From IMG/VR virus record IMGVR_UViG_3300050343_000135, positions 1 through 64,000 of that record: a DNA stretch of 64,000 nt; one strand, written 5' to 3'. The DNA comes from a virus. This document shows positions 6,536 through 60,672 of this stretch, piece after piece (within the stretch, counting starts at the first letter, position 1; every line of letters begins with the position of its first letter). The notes under the pieces were generated by a model. It ran no database searches, was not told the DNA's origin, and was given only the letters and a program-made list of their open reading frames with translations. The position numbers were made by a program, and so were the translations under genes.

Positions 6536-9027
6536 TTGAGTCTTCCTCCTAGTCTTGTTTTTCTTGCTGTAAAGCTATCTGCTTTTTTGACTGTTTCATT
6601 TGTTTGCATTATGTTTTTGGTTTGCATCGCAGTACTATGATATCTTTCATCTAATCTTGCTATTTGTTCTTTAATCCAAAATCCTTCCGCTGCATTTCTA
6701 TTAGTACTATAAACTCCCGCCATTACAGTAGAAGGCCATTCATAAGGGCCATATGTTAATTGTTGTTCTTCATAGTCAGTCTCTGCTGCTGAAGTATAAT
6801 TAGCTTGTAATCTTACACCTGTAAATCTGTGGTCTCCACTACTTTCTCCACTTGCCAATGCATTAGTTCTATTTGATACCGTAATATCTGCAATCCCTAA
6901 ACGTGGATATGTGCCACTAAAATCTGGATCAAGTTTTACTTTTGCCGAGTATCTTAGTGTAGTATTTGCAGGAACATAAATTGTATCTAAATATCCAGGG
7001 CTTTCATCACTATCATATCTTCTAAAAAATCTCCACGCTCCTTCATCATTATCATAAAAAGCTTCCCAACGATAACCATATTTTCTTACATGATCTACTT
7101 CAAAATTGTGCTCATTTACCGTTAAAACTCGACCCACTCCTTGGAACATATTGCCTCCTCTATACTGTCCATCTTGTGCAGTGCCTTTTGTTGTTGCATC
7201 ATTATATGGCTGTGGAAATCCACTTGGACTTCTAACTTCGCAATAAGATAATCCAGCATCACTAAATTCGGAGTTCAGTCCATATCTATGCCCAGTAAAT
7301 TTACACTTGTATATAGCCATAGGATTCCATGACATATGTACTAAGTTTAATCCATAATTATTGGCATCAGTTGTATTTGAATGAAAGCCTCTACCTCCAC
7401 CAGAATATGGTGCGTATAGTCTATACCCATAATTATTTCTTGATGTATGATTGTAAGCTACTTCCCAAAGATTATCCATACCCTCTAATCTCATTGCAAA
7501 ACTATCTTGACCATGGACTATATTATGATAAACTTTATACCCCGGCTCATAGTAAGTTGAAATCCCGTCGTCTCCATGTAAAACTGTACAGCATCTTGCT
7601 GCCGCGGATCTGCAATCATATAACCATAAAGGACCCCAGTCTCTTTCATGTGCATTATCTGGATAAATATGAATCGCAAGTCCTTCTACCCAAGTACCTG
7701 TTTTTCTATCTGGTATTGTTTCTGTAAGTGTAACGTCAATATTACCGCTATCATGAGAATTTAGTCCTCTCAAAACTACTCCAGTTCGAGTATTTGTGTT
7801 TCCATTTCCCCAATTCTTAAAGTATGCATCTTTAACAATACATGCTCTATTCCAGCTACTTGTATGCTCTACGTATAAGAATCCAAAATCTGTACCGGGT
7901 GTAAGACACTCAAACTTAACATCTCGTGTTAAACGAACTACTCTTACATTAGTTTTTACTGTGTAATCAACCGCTGCGTTTACTGTTATATTATTTCCAC
8001 TTATAGCACTAATAGTATGTAAAGTATGTTTATGGCTTGCGCTCCAATATCCTTGATAGTCTGTAGTTCCATCAGCTTCTGAAACTCTTTCAATATAGAT
8101 GTCGTCTCCTACTACAAACATACTAGAATCGAGAACAGAAATAGTAGTGCCAGTGCTTGATGTTTCTGCTGTAGTTAAAGTACAAACTTTTCTTACTTTA
8201 GAAGCAGTTACATGAGCTTTTTCTAGTCCGCCGAGATAAATAGTTTCTCCTACTTGATTTGCTTTATTCGTTATGTCTGCACTAAAAGTTATTTTGTTTT
8301 TATTATAATTAATGTTACTAATTGTTCTAAAGTTTCTATCTGACCCTGTGTTAAAAATTACTCGCTGATTGACGCGAAAGACTTTAGCATTATCGACAAA
8401 CACGGCATCATTTCCACTTGTCTTCGTAATTGTTGCTTCTGGACTTACATAGTGTCTAACATAAAGATTGCTACCTGAAATATCATGAATCCAGAATCCT
8501 TCATCATGGAATCCTTCAATTGGTGAAGCCCAGTCTGTACCACTATAAGTAGTTGTAATATCATATACTGCTATCTGTTCGCCTATAGCAAAGTCACTTG
8601 CACTTGATACAGGTAAATATTCGCCATTTACTACAGTAGCACTTGTTGTTGTTGTAGTAGGCATACCATCACTTCCTTCAATAATTAAATCTGCTCCTGC
8701 TTCATTATCTACTACTATGCCATGGTTATCTCCCTCTGCTCCTTTTACTTGTACTGTTAATCCCGCTCTTGCATGAAAAGTTCCACCACTTCCACGTACT
8801 CTTAACTCTCCATTTAGTCGAAAAGTCATTGTTGCATTAAGTTGACTTTGTAATATTCCACGAACAGTAATATTTCCCCAACCATTTGTCGGAGTTGCTA
8901 TTCCACTATCAATTGTTACAGTATGTCCTGCTGTAATTGTAAAAGTATCGCCGTCTGCAGGAGTTGAGCCTCCCCAAGTTGCTGAACTTGACCAGTTACC
9001 TGATTGTGATGAAGTTAGTGCTGCCAT
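6532..9027 (-). CDS. Large tail spike-like protein, G8-like start and beta-helix body
   Basis: 831 residues without a break. The N-terminus (GNWSSSATWGGSTPADGD, then HTVTID) resembles the G8-type domain found in marine phage spikes. The middle has repeating short strands with aromatic and Asn positions (KVYHNIVHGQDSFAM, EVAYNHTSRNNYGYRL) that fit a right-handed parallel beta helix of the pectate-lyase type. No lyase active site can be fixed by eye. Polysaccharide binding or depolymerisation at the cell surface is likely but inferred. Confidence 0.6.
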   Translation of the reverse strand: MAALTSSQSGNWSSSATWGGSTPADGDTFTITAGHTVTIDSGIATPTNGWGNITVRGILQSQLNATMTFRLNGELRVRGSGGTFHARAGLTVQVKGAEGDNHGIVVDNEAGADLIIEGSDGMPTTTTTSATVVNGEYLPVSSASDFAIGEQIAVYDITTTYSGTDWASPIEGFHDEGFWIHDISGSNLYVRHYVSPEATITKTSGNDAVFVDNAKVFRVNQRVIFNTGSDRNFRTISNINYNKNKITFSADITNKANQVGETIYLGGLEKAHVTASKVRKVCTLTTAETSSTGTTISVLDSSMFVVGDDIYIERVSEADGTTDYQGYWSASHKHTLHTISAISGNNITVNAAVDYTVKTNVRVVRLTRDVKFECLTPGTDFGFLYVEHTSSWNRACIVKDAYFKNWGNGNTNTRTGVVLRGLNSHDSGNIDVTLTETIPDRKTGTWVEGLAIHIYPDNAHERDWGPLWLYDCRSAAARCCTVLHGDDGISTYYEPGYKVYHNIVHGQDSFAMRLEGMDNLWEVAYNHTSRNNYGYRLYAPYSGGGRGFHSNTTDANNYGLNLVHMSWNPMAIYKCKFTGHRYGLNSEFSDAGLSYCEVRSPSGFPQPYNDATTKGTAQDGQYRGGNMFQGVGRVLTVNEHNFEVDHVRKYGYRWEAFYDNDEGAWRFFRRYDSDESPGYLDTIYVPANTTLRYSAKVKLDPDFSGTYPRLGIADITVSNRTNALASGESSGDHRFTGVRLQANYTSAAETDYEEQQLTYGPYEWPSTVMAGVYSTNRNAAEGFWIKEQIARLDERYHSTAMQTKNIMQTNETVKKADSFTARKTRLGGRLK

Positions 9028-9197
9028 TAGTCTTCTGCTCCCGCCGGTGTTTGTATATCTATTATAGATTCTAATTCTTCCATGTCTATTGTAATTATTT
9101 TATTAACTCCGTCATTTTCAATAGAGATATTTGTATCTTGGTCTTCTTGCATAACAGTAATTGTATTATCTGGCTCTAGTTTAAATTTAACTCTCAT
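9027..9197 (-). CDS. Small hypothetical protein between fibre genes
   Basis: 56 residues from ATG at 9197 ([19 protein letters not shown]...), acidic, ending PAGAED. The start follows GGTGG upstream and overlaps the end of the large collagen fibre by 11 bases; the stop overlaps the next ATG (TAATG). Tight packing on both sides supports translation. A fibre assembly or attachment role would be a guess. Confidence 0.6.
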
Positions 9198-52548: not shown

Positions 52549-52577
52549 ATTATACCACAGCGCCCGGTAAATGTCAA
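52549..52577 (-). promoter_or_regulatory. Leftward sigma70 promoter into the origin region
   Basis: TTGACA, 17-base spacer, TATAAT on the minus strand. No gene lies downstream before the DnaA boxes, so it may make an origin RNA. Confidence 0.6.
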
Positions 52578-52613
52578 GAGAAACGCAGAAATTAATTTTC
52601 TTTCACAAATCCC

Positions 52614-52641
52614 TTGACATTTCCAATTGGCGCTGTATAAT
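52614..52641 (+). promoter_or_regulatory. Sigma70 promoter for gene at 52673
   Basis: TTGACA, 16-base spacer, TATAAT. Back to back with the minus promoter at 52549 and sharing GGCGCTG in its spacer. Confidence 0.7.
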
Positions 52642-52672
52642 AGTATACATAATAAAGACAAAGGAGAACATT

Positions 52673-52834
52673 ATGAAAAACGAAAAAACAGAAAAAGCAA
52701 AAAGACCAAACAAAAAATACTTGCTAAAAGAAATTAGCGAACTATCTGGCAAAAGAATCGCTGAGTTAGACTCACTAGGCAGAAGCAACATTGAAACAAT
52801 CGTCTGGATTCGCGACATGGTCAAAGGAGCGTAA
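52673..52834 (+). CDS. Small basic/helical protein
   Basis: 53 residues (MKNEKTEKAKRPNKKYLLKE... ISELSGKRIAELDSLGRSN). AAGGAG precedes the ATG by 8 bases. The first part is basic, the rest a short helix pair; possibly DNA binding. Own promoter in the control region suggests an early regulator. Confidence 0.5.
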   Translation: MKNEKTEKAKRPNKKYLLKEISELSGKRIAELDSLGRSNIETIVWIRDMVKGA

Positions 52835-52859
52835 GCAACTCTATAACTCACTGCTAGAC

Positions 52860-52886
52860 GCAACCTGCTATTGGCACGCAGGTCGC
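52860..52886. terminator. Hairpin downstream of the 53-residue gene
   Basis: ACCTGC and GCAGGT pair around TATTGGCAC, extended by GC pairs after a mismatch. No T-run; may also act on the antisense transcript from 52924. Confidence 0.35.
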
Positions 52887-52895
52887 ATCGCGCCG

Positions 52896-52924
52896 ATTTT
52901 ACCACACCTAAACTCGCATGTCAA
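52896..52924 (-). promoter_or_regulatory. Antisense promoter
   Basis: TTGACA, 17-base spacer, TAAAAT on the minus strand, aimed at the gene at 52673-52834. Suggests an antisense transcript. Confidence 0.5.
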
Positions 52925-52996
52925 TACTTATGCGAAATTATTTTTGCCTAAAATTTCCCGGGCTAGTCTTCCCTATACCTAAAGCATTTCCCCAAG

Positions 52997-53010
52997 AGTG
53001 AGTACTCACT
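52997..53010. promoter_or_regulatory. Perfect 14-bp palindrome, operator candidate
   Basis: AGTGAGTACTCACT is fully self-complementary and lies in a gene-free control stretch (52835-53334). Confidence 0.4.
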
Positions 53011-53075
53011 ATCATCGCACGTCAGCAAAAAGGGATTCGCACCAATCGGGCGTTGCTTTATCCAGGGCGGCGCCG

Positions 53076-53143
53076 TAAGTGCGAAAACTAAGTACAAAAG
53101 TGATACTCCTGCGCCAAATTAAGTGCAAAATCTAAGTACTAGG
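53076..53143 (+). repeat. Two spaced pairs of TAAGTRC repeats
   Basis: TAAGTGC at 53076, TAAGTAC at 53089, TAAGTGC at 53120 and TAAGTAC at 53133: two pairs, each with 13-base spacing, 44 bases apart. The regular spacing suggests iterons or repeated operator sites. Confidence 0.45.
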
Positions 53144-53195
53144 TCTACTTGTGCGAGTTAGCGGCCGTCGCGAGACTAGTATAAGTCTTATTTAT

Positions 53196-53223
53196 ATTTT
53201 ATCAGACTTTGGAAGCTTGTCAA
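53196..53223 (-). promoter_or_regulatory. Leftward promoter upstream of the repeats
   Basis: TTGACA, 16-base spacer, TAAAAT on the minus strand; transcription would cross the TAAGTRC repeats and the palindrome. No gene downstream on that strand. Confidence 0.5.
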
Positions 53224-53334
53224 GACTTATGCGAAGGTTTGCACCGATTTTGCGAGAAAGATTGTGCCAGTTTCGCGTCCGGCCCCCGAGAGTTCGCTAG
53301 CGTTAATTTATGAGGAATTTCTTTCGCAAATCTA

Positions 53335-53363
53335 TTGACAATCTTATCAGGCTTCTATATAAT
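53335..53363 (+). promoter_or_regulatory. Sigma70 promoter for structured RNA A
   Basis: TTGACA, 17-base spacer, TATAAT. No ORF with a ribosome site follows within 280 bases; the next gene has its own promoter. Confidence 0.65.
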
Positions 53364-53369
53364 ATATGT

Positions 53370-53545
53370 ATCTTTTGAGGGAAATGAGAAAAACCGAACA
53401 CAGAGGCTAACTATTAACAGTTAGAGAGAGTATAGGTGAGTCGCTTCAGGGGGGTGTCCAAGCATGCTAGGGGATATTAGAAATGCAAAAACGAACAAGA
53501 GCTTGGCCCGATTCATTTCCACCAAAAGACCTATACTAAGGTATG
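53370..53545 (+). ncRNA. Candidate structured RNA A
   Basis: Downstream of a consensus promoter. Stems visible: CTAACT/AGTTAG hairpin (53407-53424), a 9-bp closing stem AGTATAGGT (53429-53437) with ACCTATACT (53529-53537), and inside it CCAAGC (53458-53463) with GCTTGG (53501-53506). No coding frame. No T-run is seen at the 3' end, so the end is approximate. Class unknown. Confidence 0.45.
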
Positions 53546-53582
53546 GTTGCGAAAGGAGAACACGCAAAACATAAAAAACTCC

Positions 53583-53611
53583 TTGACAAAACCTTATCCG
53601 CAGTATATAAT
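53583..53611 (+). promoter_or_regulatory. Sigma70 promoter for HTH gene at 53651
   Basis: TTGACA, 17-base spacer, TATAAT, followed by a 35-base leader with AAGGAG before ATG 53651. Confidence 0.7.
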
Positions 53612-53650
53612 AGTATTATAAAAACAAACAAAAAGAATAAGGAGAACATT

Positions 53651-53977
53651 ATGGCATCAGCTAAAAATTACACAGAAGAAATGGTAGCTTCAATGACAGA
53701 AGCATACAAAGCCAATCCTACAAGAGAAACAGTAGATGGCTTAGCAAGAGAATTTGGCAAGACTACAAGAAGTATCATTGCTAAACTTTCAAGAGAAGGC
53801 GTATATGTTGCTCAACCAAGAACAACTAAATCTGGTGAAGCAATAGTAGCTAAATCTGAGTTGGTTTCTGAAGTTGCTACTATTCTAGGTGTGCAGGTTG
53901 AGGACATAGCATCTCTAGAAAAAGCAACAAAAGTCCACCTCAAAGAACTGGTGACAAGACTATCCCAAGTAGTCTAG
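53651..53977 (+). CDS. HTH-type DNA-binding regulator, paralogue 1
   Basis: 108 residues. TVDGLAREFGKTTRSIIAKL then SREGVYVAQPRTTK is a helix-turn-helix core, followed by a small helical C-terminus (VATILGVQVEDIASLEKATK). The start at 53651 is chosen because AAGGAG precedes it and upstream in-frame sequence covers the promoter. Closely similar in plan to the gene at 57956-58258. Confidence 0.6.
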   Translation: MASAKNYTEEMVASMTEAYKANPTRETVDGLAREFGKTTRSIIAKLSREGVYVAQPRTTKSGEAIVAKSELVSEVATILGVQVEDIASLEKATKVHLKELVTRLSQVV

Positions 53978-53983
53978 TTGCGA

Positions 53984-54035
53984 ACTCTGAGAACCTCGTG
54001 AAAAATAACACTTGACACGAGGTTACCGCCAGAGT
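53984..54035. promoter_or_regulatory. 15-bp inverted repeat overlapping a -35 box
   Basis: ACTCTG and AACCTCGTG (53984-54000) pair with CACGAGGTT and CAGAGT (54016-54035). The right arm contains part of the TTGACA of the next promoter, so it can be both the terminator of the HTH gene and an operator. Confidence 0.45.
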
Positions 54036-54040
54036 ATAAT
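54012..54040 (+). promoter_or_regulatory. Sigma70 promoter for structured RNA B
   Basis: TTGACA, 17-base spacer, TATAAT. No gene follows before the next promoter. Confidence 0.65.
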
Positions 54041-54046
54041 ATATTT

Positions 54047-54340
54047 ATAAAATTAAGAAACAGTAGAGAAGTGATAAAAGTAGGCTGACCCCCTCATTGT
54101 CACTTGGTTAAAGTGAACCTACTCTAGCTACTAAACATACCCTATCAAGTAGCAGATAGTATTTAACGGGAAAGTGGTGGGATTAAATACTGTTTTTTAG
54201 CTAGATAACTCTAGCGTGGTAAGTGTCTACGGAAGCACGCACAAAAGTGAAGTAGCAAGTTCGACTCTTGCACCACCTAGTAAAAGTTAGTACCAATCTA
54301 ACATCTAGCTAAAAACCAGTTAAGTAGTAAATAAGTTAAA
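54047..54340 (+). ncRNA. Candidate structured RNA B with tRNA-like domain
   Basis: About 290 bases with no ORF. AGTATTTAA pairs perfectly with TTAAATACT (9 bp, about 54157-54191), and TTTTTAGCTAGAT (54194-54206) pairs with ATCTAGCTAAAAA (54303-54315), a 13-bp stem enclosing the tRNA-like element at 54213-54279. Own promoter upstream. Class unknown. Confidence 0.5.
54213..54279 (+). ncRNA. tRNA-like element inside RNA B
   Basis: T-arm GCAAG-TTCGACT-CTTGC (54255-54271) is canonical, followed by ACCACCT-A. The 5' side reads AG-C-GTGGT: without one extra C it would pair as a full 7-bp acceptor stem. A GTG/CAC D-like hairpin follows, but only 16 bases remain where an anticodon arm and variable loop need about 22, so it is not an ordinary tRNA. 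Confidence 0.4.
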
Positions 54341-54347
54341 AATTTAC

Positions 54348-54376
54348 TTGACACAAGGTTAAAAACGTAGTATAAT
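54348..54376 (+). promoter_or_regulatory. Sigma70 promoter for the 1-kb RNA
   Basis: TTGACA, 17-base spacer, TATAAT, followed by ATATATTAC. Confidence 0.7.
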
Positions 54377-54382
54377 ATATAT

Positions 54383-55377
54383 TACAAAAAGGGGAAAAGT
54401 AGTTGGAAACAGGAAAAAATAAATGATTGAGCTTCGGCCAATAAATAATCCTCCAACAACTTGACCGAGTGAGGCGTCACATAAAACACTGCCGGATGCT
54501 CTTTAGACATAGATGAGATTCACGTTAAATGTAAAAATGTCCGCTTTTGATAGTCGTTATGAGACATACCTTCCGCAGCAAGGAGAGAGTCATAACCGCA
54601 TGAACTGATGCGTAAATATTTGAGTGGATACTTCCAATAAGTCCCCTGAGTACATAGTACGATTGCGAAGGACTCCAAAGTAGGGTGAGTAGCGACTAAC
54701 ACAACGGCAATAAGCAAAGCAGCAACGAAGCAAGAACAGTTCGGCACTTTATCGAAAGTATAAAATCGATTTGTTTTACTGCATTAATGGGCGTTACGAC
54801 CTTCGGGTTTACTAAATGCAGAGGTAATTGTAAGCACAGGATATAGCCAAAATATCGGTGTAGAGTGAGGAAACCACGCTGTTCCTATCCCACGCCTCAA
54901 CCGTTTCGGTAGCAGGAGTGTAGGGCAAGGACGAGAAGAAAACCAGTCTACTGCGACACGGGCGGACTAGATATTTATATCATAGCAACCAGTCAATAGT
55001 AGCAAACTCGGGCAAGGGAAAGGATGATGTTTCCTAGCCGCAGACTGCGAGAGCGAGGTGTCTTCGGGACGGGGGCAGTAGGCAACTAATTAAGAAGTGC
55101 AGACTTGGAACACTATAAAAGCTAAGCAGCAAGAAGAACGGCAGTCGCTCTGTCAACTACTGAATAGTAGATATCTTAGTCAATAGCATTTGGACTTAAA
55201 ACAGTGCATAGTAGATAAGTGATGTGAAATAAGCAGTGCACCTTCGATTGAAGTTTGTAATATCCATCACCTCTAGCTACGCAGTGGACAGGTTCGTGAG
55301 TAATTCCAACACGACCACTTTAAAATAAACTTACGTTCGGAGTTTAAATAGGCAGTTGAGATACTGCCTATTTTTTT
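54383..55377 (+). ncRNA. Large ornate structured noncoding RNA, about 1 kb
   Basis: Bounded by its own consensus promoter and a strong terminator; no credible ORF on either strand for 1 kb. Many short helices with stable loops: GTTGGA/TCCAAC (54402, 54452) enclosing an ATTG-GC-TTCG-GC-CAAT hairpin (54426-54442); CTGCATT/AATGCAG (54779, 54815) enclosing GACC-TTCG-GGTT; CTTC-GATT-GAAG (55242); GTGATG/CATCAC (55219, 55265). Size, phage setting and tetraloop content recall the GOLLD and ROOL classes of giant phage RNAs, but assignment needs a covariance search. Confidence 0.65.
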
Positions 55378-55378
55378 G
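55347..55378 (+). terminator. Rho-independent terminator of the 1-kb RNA
   Basis: AATAGGCAGT and ACTGCCTATT pair around a 6-base loop; seven T follow the base of the stem. Confidence 0.8.
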
Positions 55379-55425
55379 TTTCGTAGAACTATATCTCAAA
55401 ATTTTAAGGTCTTAAAAAATAGTTC

Positions 55426-55454
55426 TTGACAGACAACTTATTTCTCTGTATAAT
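55426..55454 (+). promoter_or_regulatory. Sigma70 promoter for the early gene block
   Basis: TTGACA, 17-base spacer, TATAAT, then a short leader with AAGGAG before ATG 55480. Confidence 0.75.
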
Positions 55455-55479: not shown

Positions 55480-55824
55480 ATGGATTTATGGACAACAATC
55501 AAACACTTAGAAAAGGAACACAATTGCATAATATATGGCATACTTGAACCACAAGGTGTAGCAGAAGATTTATCTAGCTGGAGTAGTTTTGATGCTGAGG
55601 AGCGAACAGAAGATTTCATAATGGACTCTTACGACATTCCAACGCAGTTAATGCTTGAAGCATTTGAGAACGCATATAACAATGTAAGTTCCGAGTACGA
55701 CAACTACAACACTATGCTAGAAGTAGTAGGCGATTACATAGTCGCAAAGTTAAAAGCAAAGCAGTGTGTATGTGGCGCAGTAGAATGCCCAGACGAGTAC
55801 GCACACACAACGAGTGGGGTGTAA
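55480..55824 (+). CDS. Hypothetical early protein
   Basis: 114 residues from ATG 55480 (MDLWTTIKHLEKEHNCIIYG...). Acidic, helical, with a C-terminal CVCGAVECPDEYAH Cys cluster that might bind metal. First gene after the strong promoter. Confidence 0.55.
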   Translation: MDLWTTIKHLEKEHNCIIYGILEPQGVAEDLSSWSSFDAEERTEDFIMDSYDIPTQLMLEAFENAYNNVSSEYDNYNTMLEVVGDYIVAKLKAKQCVCGAVECPDEYAHTTSGV

Positions 55825-58258: not shown

Positions 58259-58469
58259 TAATGACACCAAAAGGTCTAGGAATGTGTGATAGACAGGAGT
58301 TTCGAATGCATGGGGATTTAATGTACCTAAAGGTTACGCTAAAGACTGGGAAAGTGTAGAATATTTGAACACTGAAGTAAGATTTCTAGATATGGAAGTA
58401 GAAGTTGAGGAAATAAAAAGACGTAAAAGATTAGATGCAATTACGGGAAAGATTAATGAAAAATTTTGA
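58246..58469 (+). CDS. Hypothetical protein at end of early block (one frameshift)
   Basis: ATG 58246 (MRRIVMTPKGLGMCDRQEF), indel near 58310, then NVPKGYAKDWESVEYLNTEV and EVEEIKRRKRLDAITGKINE, ending TGA 58469. About 74 residues, charged helical C-terminus. Overlaps the HTH gene. Confidence 0.4.
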
Positions 58470-58517
58470 ATTGGGCGAAGTCTTTAGATAATTAAGACGC
58501 AGTTTTAGACAGACATC

Positions 58518-58548
58518 AAAGACCGATTAGCTTTTAGTCGGTCTTTTT
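58518..58548. terminator. Bidirectional terminator between convergent units
   Basis: AAAGACCGA (58518-58526) and TCGGTCTTT (58538-58546) pair over 9 bp; TTTTT follows on the plus strand. Separates rightward early genes from the leftward structured RNA. Confidence 0.65.
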
Positions 58549-58549
58549 C

Positions 58550-58706
58550 GTTGTTTGAATTAGATTGTATTTTCTCTCTCGACCTTTCACTCAGTTCATC
58601 TCAGGTCTCTTCTTCGCTTACGCTCGAAGAGCCTTGTTTTAAGATAATCGGAGTAGGTCTCGATTAGGAGAGAGAAGAATGAATTGAGTAATTATTCTAA
58701 TTTATA
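58550..58706 (-). ncRNA. Candidate structured RNA D, possible pseudoknot
   Basis: Gene-free, minus-strand promoter upstream and terminator downstream. On the plus coordinates AATTAGA (58558) pairs with TCTAATT (58696); ACTCAGTTCAT (58589) with ATGAATTGAGT (58679; one mismatch); TCTCTCTC (58573) with GAGAGAGA (58668) crosses the second stem, giving a pseudoknot or alternative fold; TAATCG/CGATTA (58645, 58661) is a local hairpin. Class unknown. Confidence 0.45.
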
Positions 58707-58712
58707 GTATAT

Positions 58713-58741
58713 ATTTTATCACACTTTTATCAAGATTGCAA
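58713..58741 (-). promoter_or_regulatory. Leftward promoter for RNA D
   Basis: TTGCAA, 17-base spacer, TAAAAT on the minus strand, just below the bS21 gene. Weaker match than others. Confidence 0.4.
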
Positions 58742-58786
58742 GTTTTATTTTTGGTAGGGTCATTATAGCTACTTTCTGGGAACGTC

Positions 58787-59014
58787 TTATCTCCGAGAAA
58801 ATTTATTTCTCTTACGATAGTCAGATGAGATTTGATTGAGAGATTTAAGATGTCTCTTCCTCTGCTCGTTTTTCTTACGTTTGCGTTTCACTGTTGGTTT
58901 CTCATAGAATTCGAGTTCGCGACAGCGTTCTTTGATTTGAGCGGCCTCACATTTCTTACGAAAAATACGAATTGCCTTTTCTGTTGGCATGTTTTTACAG
59001 TATATACTAGGCAT
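58787..59014 (-). CDS. rpsU: Ribosomal protein bS21 (phage-encoded)
   Basis: 75 residues. MPTEKAIRIFRKKCEAAQIK, ERCRELEFYEKPTVKRKRKK and RKRHLKSLNQISS match bS21 along its whole length, including the REFYEKP-type centre and basic tail. bS21 sits near the anti-Shine-Dalgarno end of 16S rRNA and affects start-site choice. Its ATG overlaps the upstream HTH gene's stop by 8 bases, so both come from the leaderless promoter at 59186. Phage bS21 proteins are known in marine phages and can replace the host copy. Confidence 0.85.
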   Translation of the reverse strand: MPSIYCKNMPTEKAIRIFRKKCEAAQIKERCRELEFYEKPTVKRKRKKNEQRKRHLKSLNQISSDYRKRNKFSRR

Positions 59015-59179
59015 GCGCTCTCCTGTTATTGAAAGTCCAGCCTCTCTTTCGTAAGTAATGTATCTGCGAATAGAGTTGACTCTCAGTAACCTGAAGTTTC
59101 TTGCAAATGTCTGTGCGTCGAATTACCTTGTAGTTTCCTTTAAATACTGCTTATCTTCTTGAGTCCATCTTTTGTTCAT
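59007..59179 (-). CDS. Small HTH-like protein from leaderless message (one frameshift)
   Basis: ATG 59179 starts exactly below the -10 box. MNKRWTQEDKQYLKE, one base lost near 59130, then YKVIRRTDICKKLQVTESQL and YSQIHYLRKRGWTFNNRRAH. The pattern (W..ED..L... DI...L....L..) resembles short Myb/HTH-like DNA-binding proteins. About 57 residues. Operon partner of bS21. Confidence 0.5.
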
Positions 59180-59185
59180 ATCCAT

Positions 59186-59214
59186 ATTATACTAAAAATA
59201 GAACCTGTTGTCAA
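59186..59214 (-). promoter_or_regulatory. Sigma70 promoter, leaderless geometry
   Basis: TTGACA, 17-base spacer, TATAAT, 6 bases, ATG (59179). The spacer end ATTTTTAG equals that of the 48991 promoter. Confidence 0.75.
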
Positions 59215-59245
59215 GTATTATTTTTGACCATGTTAAATATAGTAC

Positions 59246-59274
59246 TTGACCTCGCGTTAGAAAAGTTGTATAAT
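59246..59274 (+). promoter_or_regulatory. Sigma70 promoter, divergent from the bS21 promoter
   Basis: TTGACC, 17-base spacer, TATAAT; AGGAAA and ATG 59298 follow. Confidence 0.65.
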
Positions 59275-59297
59275 ATATACATAAAAAAGGAAACACT

Positions 59298-59444
59298 ATG
59301 AACAATAATGATTTAGCAGTACTGATATGGTTATTACTATCAAATGTGGGAACTTACTTTTTCTGTAAGTACCATTTTATACGACATACCATAGATGTTC
59401 TCGAAGATAAAGGGCTACTAATCCTCGAAGATGATGAAAAATAA
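59298..59444 (+). CDS. Small single-helix membrane protein
   Basis: 48 residues: MNNNDLAVLIWLLLSNVGTY with helix to FFCKYHF, then an acidic tail (VLEDKGLLILEDDEK). AAGGAAA precedes the ATG. Own promoter; unknown role. Confidence 0.55.
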   Translation: MNNNDLAVLIWLLLSNVGTYFFCKYHFIRHTIDVLEDKGLLILEDDEK

Positions 59445-59447
59445 TTC

Positions 59448-59476
59448 TTGACATCAACTTCCAAATTTAGTATAAT
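59448..59476 (+). promoter_or_regulatory. Sigma70 promoter for Hsp20 operon
   Basis: TTGACA, 17-base spacer, TATAAT, directly after the previous stop. Confidence 0.7.
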
Positions 59477-59645: not shown

Positions 59646-60040
59646 ATGACAATAGACAATATCTATTAAAGCACTTTCTCGGCTTTGACGAGAGATTTTT
59701 TAACCCCGTTGACGATACAGCGTATCCTCGACACAATATAGTAACACGCGGTGATGACTACTTTCGTATTGAAATGGCGTTGCCAGGCTGGATTAAGGAG
59801 AACATTGAAGTAACTTTGGAGAACAGGCAACTGACTATCCAAGGAAATACTAAACTAGAGTGTGGAGAAGAGGAATCTTACTTACACAAAGGCATAAGTG
59901 GAAAAGTGTTTAAAAGAACTTTCTCTCTTGGCGAATTTATAAACGTCAATGAGGTAGAGTTTGAAAACGGCTTGCTAAGCATAGAATTAGAGAAGGTCAT
60001 ACCAGATGAGAAGAAACCAAAGGTATTTGACATAAAATGA
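59646..60040 (+). CDS. Hsp20/alpha-crystallin small heat-shock protein (one frameshift)
   Basis: ATG 59646 (MTIDNIY), frame break near 59668, then KHFLGFDERFFNPVDDTAYP, YFRIEMALPGWIKENIEVTL and KVFKRTFSLGEFINVNEVEF, with GLLSIELEK near the end: the alpha-crystallin core. Usual phage length of about 130 residues. Small heat-shock proteins prevent aggregation; in marine phages they are thought to aid capsid or replication proteins. Upstream long leader; downstream 42-residue gene overlaps. Confidence 0.75.
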
Positions 60041-60228: not shown

Positions 60229-60672
60229 ATGAATATATCACAGGAGGGCTTAGCCCTTATCAAGAAGTTTGAAGGACTAGAACTGAAAGCATATAATTGT
60301 GCAGCTGGAGTATGGACCATTGGTTATGGACATACAGCAGGCGTGCAAGAAGATGATGTTTGGTCTGAAGAATACGCAAACGAACAACTAGAAAAAGACA
60401 TGGAAGAATACGCTGGGTATATCAATGACCTAGTAACATGTAAATTATCACAGAACCAGTTTGATGCCCTAGTATCATGGGTATACAATCTCGGCCCAGC
60501 CAATCTAAAGGCATCTACACTACTTAAAAAACTTAATGCAGAAGACTATGCAGATATTCCTACTCAAATCAAAAGATGGAATAAAGCAGGTGGCAAGGTA
60601 TTAGAAGGACTTATAAGAAGAAGAGAAGCAGAAGCTCTACTTTTTGAAGCTAAAGACTGGGAACATGTCTAA
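60229..60672 (+). CDS. Endolysin, GH24 lysozyme
   Basis: 147 residues. KKFEGLELKAYNCAAGVWTI GYGHT gives the catalytic Glu, a Cys at the usual Asp position eight residues on, and the Thr five further (E-8-C-5-T type). ALVSWVYNLGPANLKASTLL and IKRWNKAGGKVLEGLIRRRE complete the T4/P22 lysozyme fold. No signal-anchor helix is visible, so export probably relies on a holin. First gene of the lysis cassette. Confidence 0.8.
   Translation: MNISQEGLALIKKFEGLELKAYNCAAGVWTIGYGHTAGVQEDDVWSEEYANEQLEKDMEEYAGYINDLVTCKLSQNQFDALVSWVYNLGPANLKASTLLKKLNAEDYADIPTQIKRWNKAGGKVLEGLIRRREAEALLFEAKDWEHV

Follow-up and report, generated by a model that had tools for sequence, protein, structure and literature searches.

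A large structured noncoding RNA conserved at one syntenic site in uncultured, distantly T5-like phages

The window (the whole stretch of DNA that was analysed) is 64 kb out of a 74,214-base IMG/VR virus record. A sigma-70 promoter with a 12/12 match (TTGACA-17-TATAAT) lies at positions 54348-54376 (+), and a terminator hairpin at 55346-55373 is followed by a T-run, the whole intrinsic terminator covering 55346-55378 (+). The stretch 54383-55377 (+) corresponds to a noncoding RNA of ~995 nt, the 5' start of which was inferred from the promoter position. No sense-strand ORF of at least 40 aa was found between promoter and terminator (54383-55377), and ~1.5 kb without genes separates the D5-like gene upstream from a small gene starting at 55480. 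The perfect promoter, the strong terminator at the RNA 3' end and the gene-free 1 kb described in the initial annotation were thus all present. GC content is 42% in the RNA and 37% in the window. The RNA sits among individually promoted small genes, as might be expected of a long leader or riboswitch belonging to the next gene, or of a gene in decay; a leader is contradicted by the terminator at its end and by the next gene's own perfect promoter at 55426-55454, and a decayed gene by compensatory changes, indels and the lack of an ORF excess among the homologues, so that this reading is largely refuted on present data and hardly credible. The features of the locus are given in Table 1, to which only the top helices were admitted because the lax helix finder returned 40 helices in the RNA and 14-20 in controls.

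Table 1. Features of the RNA locus, in positions of the window. Pairing and double changes refer to the aligned homologues.
Feature	Position	Strand	Remarks
D5-like DNA-binding protein gene	53543-53977	+	PHROG 323 and 1725; syntenic upstream neighbour of the RNA
tRNA-like fold on long stem	54216-54276 on 54189-54319	+	Between D5-like gene and RNA promoter
5' domain helix	54402-54407 / 54452-54457	+	Variable UUCG hairpin inside; 92% paired; 5 pairs double-changed; 31 sequences
Hairpin GUGA-GGCG-UCAC	54469-54472 / 54477-54480	+	Double changes in 3/4 pairs; variants GUGA/UCAC, GAGU/ACUC, GACU/AGUC
Helix	54506-54510 / 54537-54541	+	Double changes in 5/5 pairs
Helix with inner hairpin	54556-54562 / 54590-54596; inner 54569-54571 / 54581-54583	+	Together: double changes in 10/10 pairs; 100% paired, 33 sequences
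Hairpin	54597-54601 / 54608-54612	+	Loop forms pseudoknot 1
Pseudoknot 1	Loop 54605-54607 with 54742-54744	+	100% paired, 33 sequences; double changes in 3/3 pairs
Hairpin	54746-54750 / 54755-54759	+	100% paired; 54749-54756 significant in tree-based null
Pseudoknot 2	Loop 54751-54752 with 54765-54766	+	100% paired; 54751-54766 significant in tree-based null
UUCG-capped hairpin	54779-54821; outer helix 54779-54785 / 54815-54821	+	Different module instead in some members
GTGAGGAAACCACGC hairpin, GAAA loop	54865-54879	+	Identical in 33/33 aligned members; also served as search seed, so this invariance is biased
Hairpin	55016-55021 / 55030-55035	+	Two pairs with E <0.05; 5 pairs with double changes
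Hairpin	55140-55144 / 55150-55154	+	99% paired; 19 double-change cells
3' domain	55283-55286 / 55316-55319 and 55294-55298 / 55310-55314	+	Inner helix (55294-55298 / 55310-55314): 98% paired, double changes in 4 pairs
bS21 (phage ribosomal protein) gene	58787-59014	-	Pfam PF01165, 49.9 bits; syntenic downstream neighbour

Homologues of the RNA were present in 58 other IMG/VR contigs besides the window. The first relative (L099) was found using a peptide-pattern scan in which the RNA was read as protein with stops read through, and its alignment with the window RNA contained long identical noncoding blocks. Two seeds from these blocks were scanned over 2.9 million viral contigs, and together with a local nhmmer profile they gave 56 contigs besides the window; L349 and L350 were found by a further pattern and left out of every model as held-out members. 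Discovery through exact seeds biases the conservation seen at those seeds and may have missed remoter members. Complete copies are ~860-1,220 nt long. Where a copy starts inside its contig, a matching promoter lies directly upstream; where it extends to the 3' end, a terminator is present, often built on a different hairpin that still has stem and T-run. The covariance model of the 5' domain matched the held-out L349 and L350 at 130 and 122 bits (E ~1e-32 or better) with zero non-standard pairs flagged, and each of the 13 RNA-bearing records searched with the model had exactly one strong match. Searches of INPHARED phages by blastn (three RNA members) and tblastn (two neighbour proteins) gave no match, which leaves the RNA without a known cultured carrier. 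A related-locus search with one neighbour protein returned none, the contigs of head-gene relatives end before the RNA site and are uninformative on RNA presence, and a 15-base seed gave only chance matches among the matches listed for GTDB genomes.

Judged by sequence, the homologues are without coding signal. Restored coding potential, which the initial annotation had named as a refutation, was not what was found, the longest sense ORF averaging 56 aa in the homologues and 54 aa in shuffles. The minimum free energy of the window RNA (-247.7 kcal/mol) equals that of shuffled sequence (-247.2 kcal/mol, z = -0.05), and single-sequence helices are therefore no evidence; the proof rests on the comparison of homologues. 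A density of short helices capped by UUCG and other tetraloops had also been claimed. For UUCG this is weaker than claimed in the window copy, where only one such loop sits on a stem with 3 or more contiguous pairs (P = 0.12), although the family as a whole is enriched (1.9 UUCG loops per RNA vs 0.18 expected).

The core alignment comprised 33 sequences, in which 41 named pairs, the two pseudoknots included, were scored. Standard pairing was seen in 98.0% of cells of the proposed pairs vs 30-41% with partners slid by 1-3 columns, and the covariation score was 0.590 vs 0.05-0.09 for slid partners and 0.214 for shuffles. Compensatory double changes occurred in 29 of the 41 pairs, so the second named refutation (homologues without covarying stems) also fails. 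A tree-based null test, self-written on the R-scape principle with 30 simulated alignments, gave 13 column pairs with E <0.05, 12 of which have at least 90% standard pairs and one of which does not. RNAalifold on the same core predicted 44 pairs, 28 of them changed on both sides. The proposed pairs contain 74 G-U cells vs 4 A-C/C-A cells, which identifies the + strand and not the - strand as the RNA. A conserved multi-helix fold with two covarying pseudoknots on the + strand is shown by this comparison. Covariation is blind to whether pairing is intra- or inter-molecular. The two pseudoknots and the GAAA loop recall the kinds of contact made in GOLLD and ROOL, in which some loop-linker covariations turned out to be inter-chain (PMC12286853). 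One of the three pairs of pseudoknot 1 fails in the held-out L349 (by eye), and both held-out members carry GTGAAGAAACCACGC where the 33 aligned members have GTGAGGAAACCACGC.

Conserved 5' and 3' parts flank a variable middle, for which the alignment (~54885-55130) is approximate and not reliable. Exact 18-base modules were found at alignment positions >250 columns apart in different members, and the same module was not found twice in one RNA. Displaced modules include the GATTCAG-TTTA-CTGTCAA type and the AGTAGTAGGGCAAGTCCCACGC type, the latter being internal in some members and at the terminator tip in others; displaced 23-base identities between members were also seen. The displacement looks like an exchange of docking hairpins.

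In the tRNA-like fold upstream of the promoter, the acceptor is followed after two unpaired bases by a D arm whose loop contains GG, then by a truncated anticodon arm and, after five bases, by a T arm whose loop reads UUCGACU. There are 17 sequence variants of the element among RNA-bearing loci (including L118, L133, L137, L157, L159, L173, L185 and L194), and most of 9 variants folded the cloverleaf. Across ten variants, 92.4% of cells pair and 10/17 pairs show double changes, the compensatory changes falling in the acceptor, anticodon-like and T stems. ARAGORN and Rfam did not call the element a tRNA, with the L133 variant scoring 26.7 bits against a cut-off of 29. The stem is directly followed by T6 in several relatives (e.g., L118 and L173) and looks like a terminator of the D5-like gene. 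In L350 (~8990-9060, minus strand) and L349 (~245-305), a different stem cap, AACAGACCAATTTGATGGTAGCAAC, replaces the tRNA-like cap before the RNA promoter.

The D5-like gene lies just upstream of the RNA in 14/14 records tested, with a second, weaker D5-like match ~4-5 kb beyond the RNA in 11/14. A convergent bS21 gene was found 4-6 kb from the RNA 5' domain in 12/18 records, the other six ending too close to the RNA to be informative; in the window, it lies 3.4 kb downstream of the RNA. The RNA and a head gene are on opposite strands and 18-21 kb apart in all 5 records holding both. Among named proteins, the head protein comes closest to prohead proteases from T5-like phages of Vibrio and Klebsiella (identity ~50% over less than half of the query). 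By sequence comparison, the carriers form a group of uncultured, distantly T5-like phages in which each record has the RNA once, at one syntenic site. In a published survey, bS21 ranked among the two ribosomal proteins most often encoded by viruses and was enriched in aquatic ones, bS21-bearing viruses being almost all aquatic (PMC6375957), which by analogy is suggestive only of an aquatic habitat for the RNA-bearing phages.

Several side observations were made in the same region of the window. Nine 12/12 sigma-70 promoters fall within 10 kb (52549-55454 and 59186-59476); several precede single small genes, and some are alike in sequence downstream of the -10 box. The bS21 gene has a perfect minus-strand promoter at 59214-59186, and apart from this gene ~1 kb (58259-59298) is gene-poor, with terminator-like hairpins at 58518-58546 and 58610-58631. 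A gene for an HSP20 small heat-shock protein (59774-60040; PF00011, 48.4 bits) is followed by a phage lysozyme gene (60229-60672).

As the main rival to a stand-alone scaffold, the RNA may act on the translation machinery as a ribonucleoprotein scaffold or decoy, for example by binding phage or host bS21 in the way OLE RNA does. The bS21 gene is found in every record long enough, and in OLE, likewise a large ornate RNA, bS21 is a functional component (PMC12054373), so that a bS21 gene or protein is associated with both RNAs. Against this, bS21 is common in viruses and aquatic-enriched (PMC6375957), its co-occurrence with the RNA can be plain synteny, and the bS21-binding anti-Shine-Dalgarno mimic of OLE type (CCUCCU) is not conserved, being present in only 1/33 complete members. 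OLE is bacterial and the new RNA phage-borne, and the OLE Rfam model gave no match. A role at the translation machinery would be unlikely, though not negligible.

GOLLD forms a 14-mer RNA nanocage and ROOL a homo-octameric one, and both are hollow RNA cages. The initial annotation had suggested a GOLLD/ROOL-like giant RNA, either a member or a new class. None of 4,227 Rfam models, GOLLD and ROOL included, matched the RNA family; for the window RNA, lax thresholds gave three weak matches (E >=0.5) and none at gathering scores. In the Rfam-wide search, GOLLD had no match at E up to 1 and ROOL had no match. Run alone on 9 records, RF02032 (GOLLD) reached at best 3.9 bits, outside the RNA, against a gathering score of 150, and no control genome passed either; RF03087 (ROOL; gathering score 99.1 bits) gave no match at E up to 10 with the control genomes silent too, so these single-model runs had no working positive control. 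The covarying homologues thus bear out the new class, whereas the searches lend no support to its being part of GOLLD or ROOL. The open-access literature searched gave no account of this RNA.

The likeness to GOLLD extends to a large noncoding RNA of phages or prophages (many GOLLD members being >800 nt), conserved and variable regions, pseudoknots, and a conserved GAAA loop, and that to ROOL to large size, phage setting, several pseudoknots and a variable linker. The new RNA differs from GOLLD in having no sequence or covariance-model match and in being confined so far to one T5-like phage group, and from ROOL in having no model match, a greater length (~860-1,220 nt vs 659 nt for ROOL env-120) and a different genomic site. 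No palindromic loop of the GOLLD B8 or OLE B3 type was noticed. In phages, and for GOLLD in prophages too, tRNA islands are frequent neighbours of GOLLD and ROOL (PMC12286853); the new RNA has the tRNA-like fold adjacent instead, and neither the window nor the remainder of its record (G000) nor the 105-kb record G026 yielded a tRNA gene. That the RNA is a highly diverged GOLLD or ROOL member would agree with its size, phage setting, pseudoknots and adjoining tRNA-like element. It is nevertheless very improbable, given the missing tRNA genes and the lack of a useful match to either model, when the core model built from the family itself recovers its distant held-out members at E ~1e-32.

A catalytic RNA (a self-splicing intron, an RNase P-like RNA or a new ribozyme) might likewise be expected from the long near-invariant stretches and pseudoknots, which are typical of ribozymes. 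Rfam and ARAGORN gave no match to tRNA, tmRNA, RNase P or group I/II introns, and no ribozyme model matched; the RNA is a separate transcription unit at a constant locus, not inside a gene, and has no conserved internal ORF. Catalysis is accordingly given slightly less credence still than distant kinship with GOLLD or ROOL. The RNA has its own transcript signals, a covarying complex fold and pseudoknots, as do large "ornate" structured RNAs, which are a kind and not a family.

That these sequences represent a real class of trans-acting structured RNA is nearly certain. The explanation preferred as a whole, and held to be probable, is that the RNA belongs to a new phage RNA class, large, structured and stand-alone, and acts as a GOLLD/ROOL-like scaffold; such a role is proposed because the size, phage setting, pseudoknots, GAAA loop and tolerant middle resemble those of GOLLD and ROOL (PMC12286853). 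Host RNA polymerase would transcribe the RNA from the consensus sigma-70 promoter to give an abundant RNA, and the RNA itself would be the product, folding into a compact body and acting in trans as a structural scaffold. The variable middle may be a tolerant linker or decoration. By analogy, an ornate-RNA-type scaffold is favoured by a little over another mode of action. The RNA would then perhaps self-assemble as a homo-oligomeric particle in the manner of GOLLD and ROOL; taken by itself, the homo-oligomer has, by analogy, somewhat less than an even chance, and the data would agree as well with a protein bound to the RNA, or with an RNA or protein of the host as its target. More tentatively, and rather doubtfully, this may be a third phage RNA family, one without kinship to GOLLD and ROOL, whose closed particle would be free of protein and built from exchangeable hairpin modules; these take different sites in the chain, with none found twice per RNA, as though each docked at one place in a shared three-dimensional shell.

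Few natural RNAs of comparable size and complexity are known, and the two phage classes among them, GOLLD and ROOL, still have no assigned function. Structural work gains a new target in this independent class from T5-like phages, for which 58 further members, two pseudoknots that covary and a search model are already at hand. With it, the question can be put whether phages resort repeatedly to large RNA particles, and to what end.
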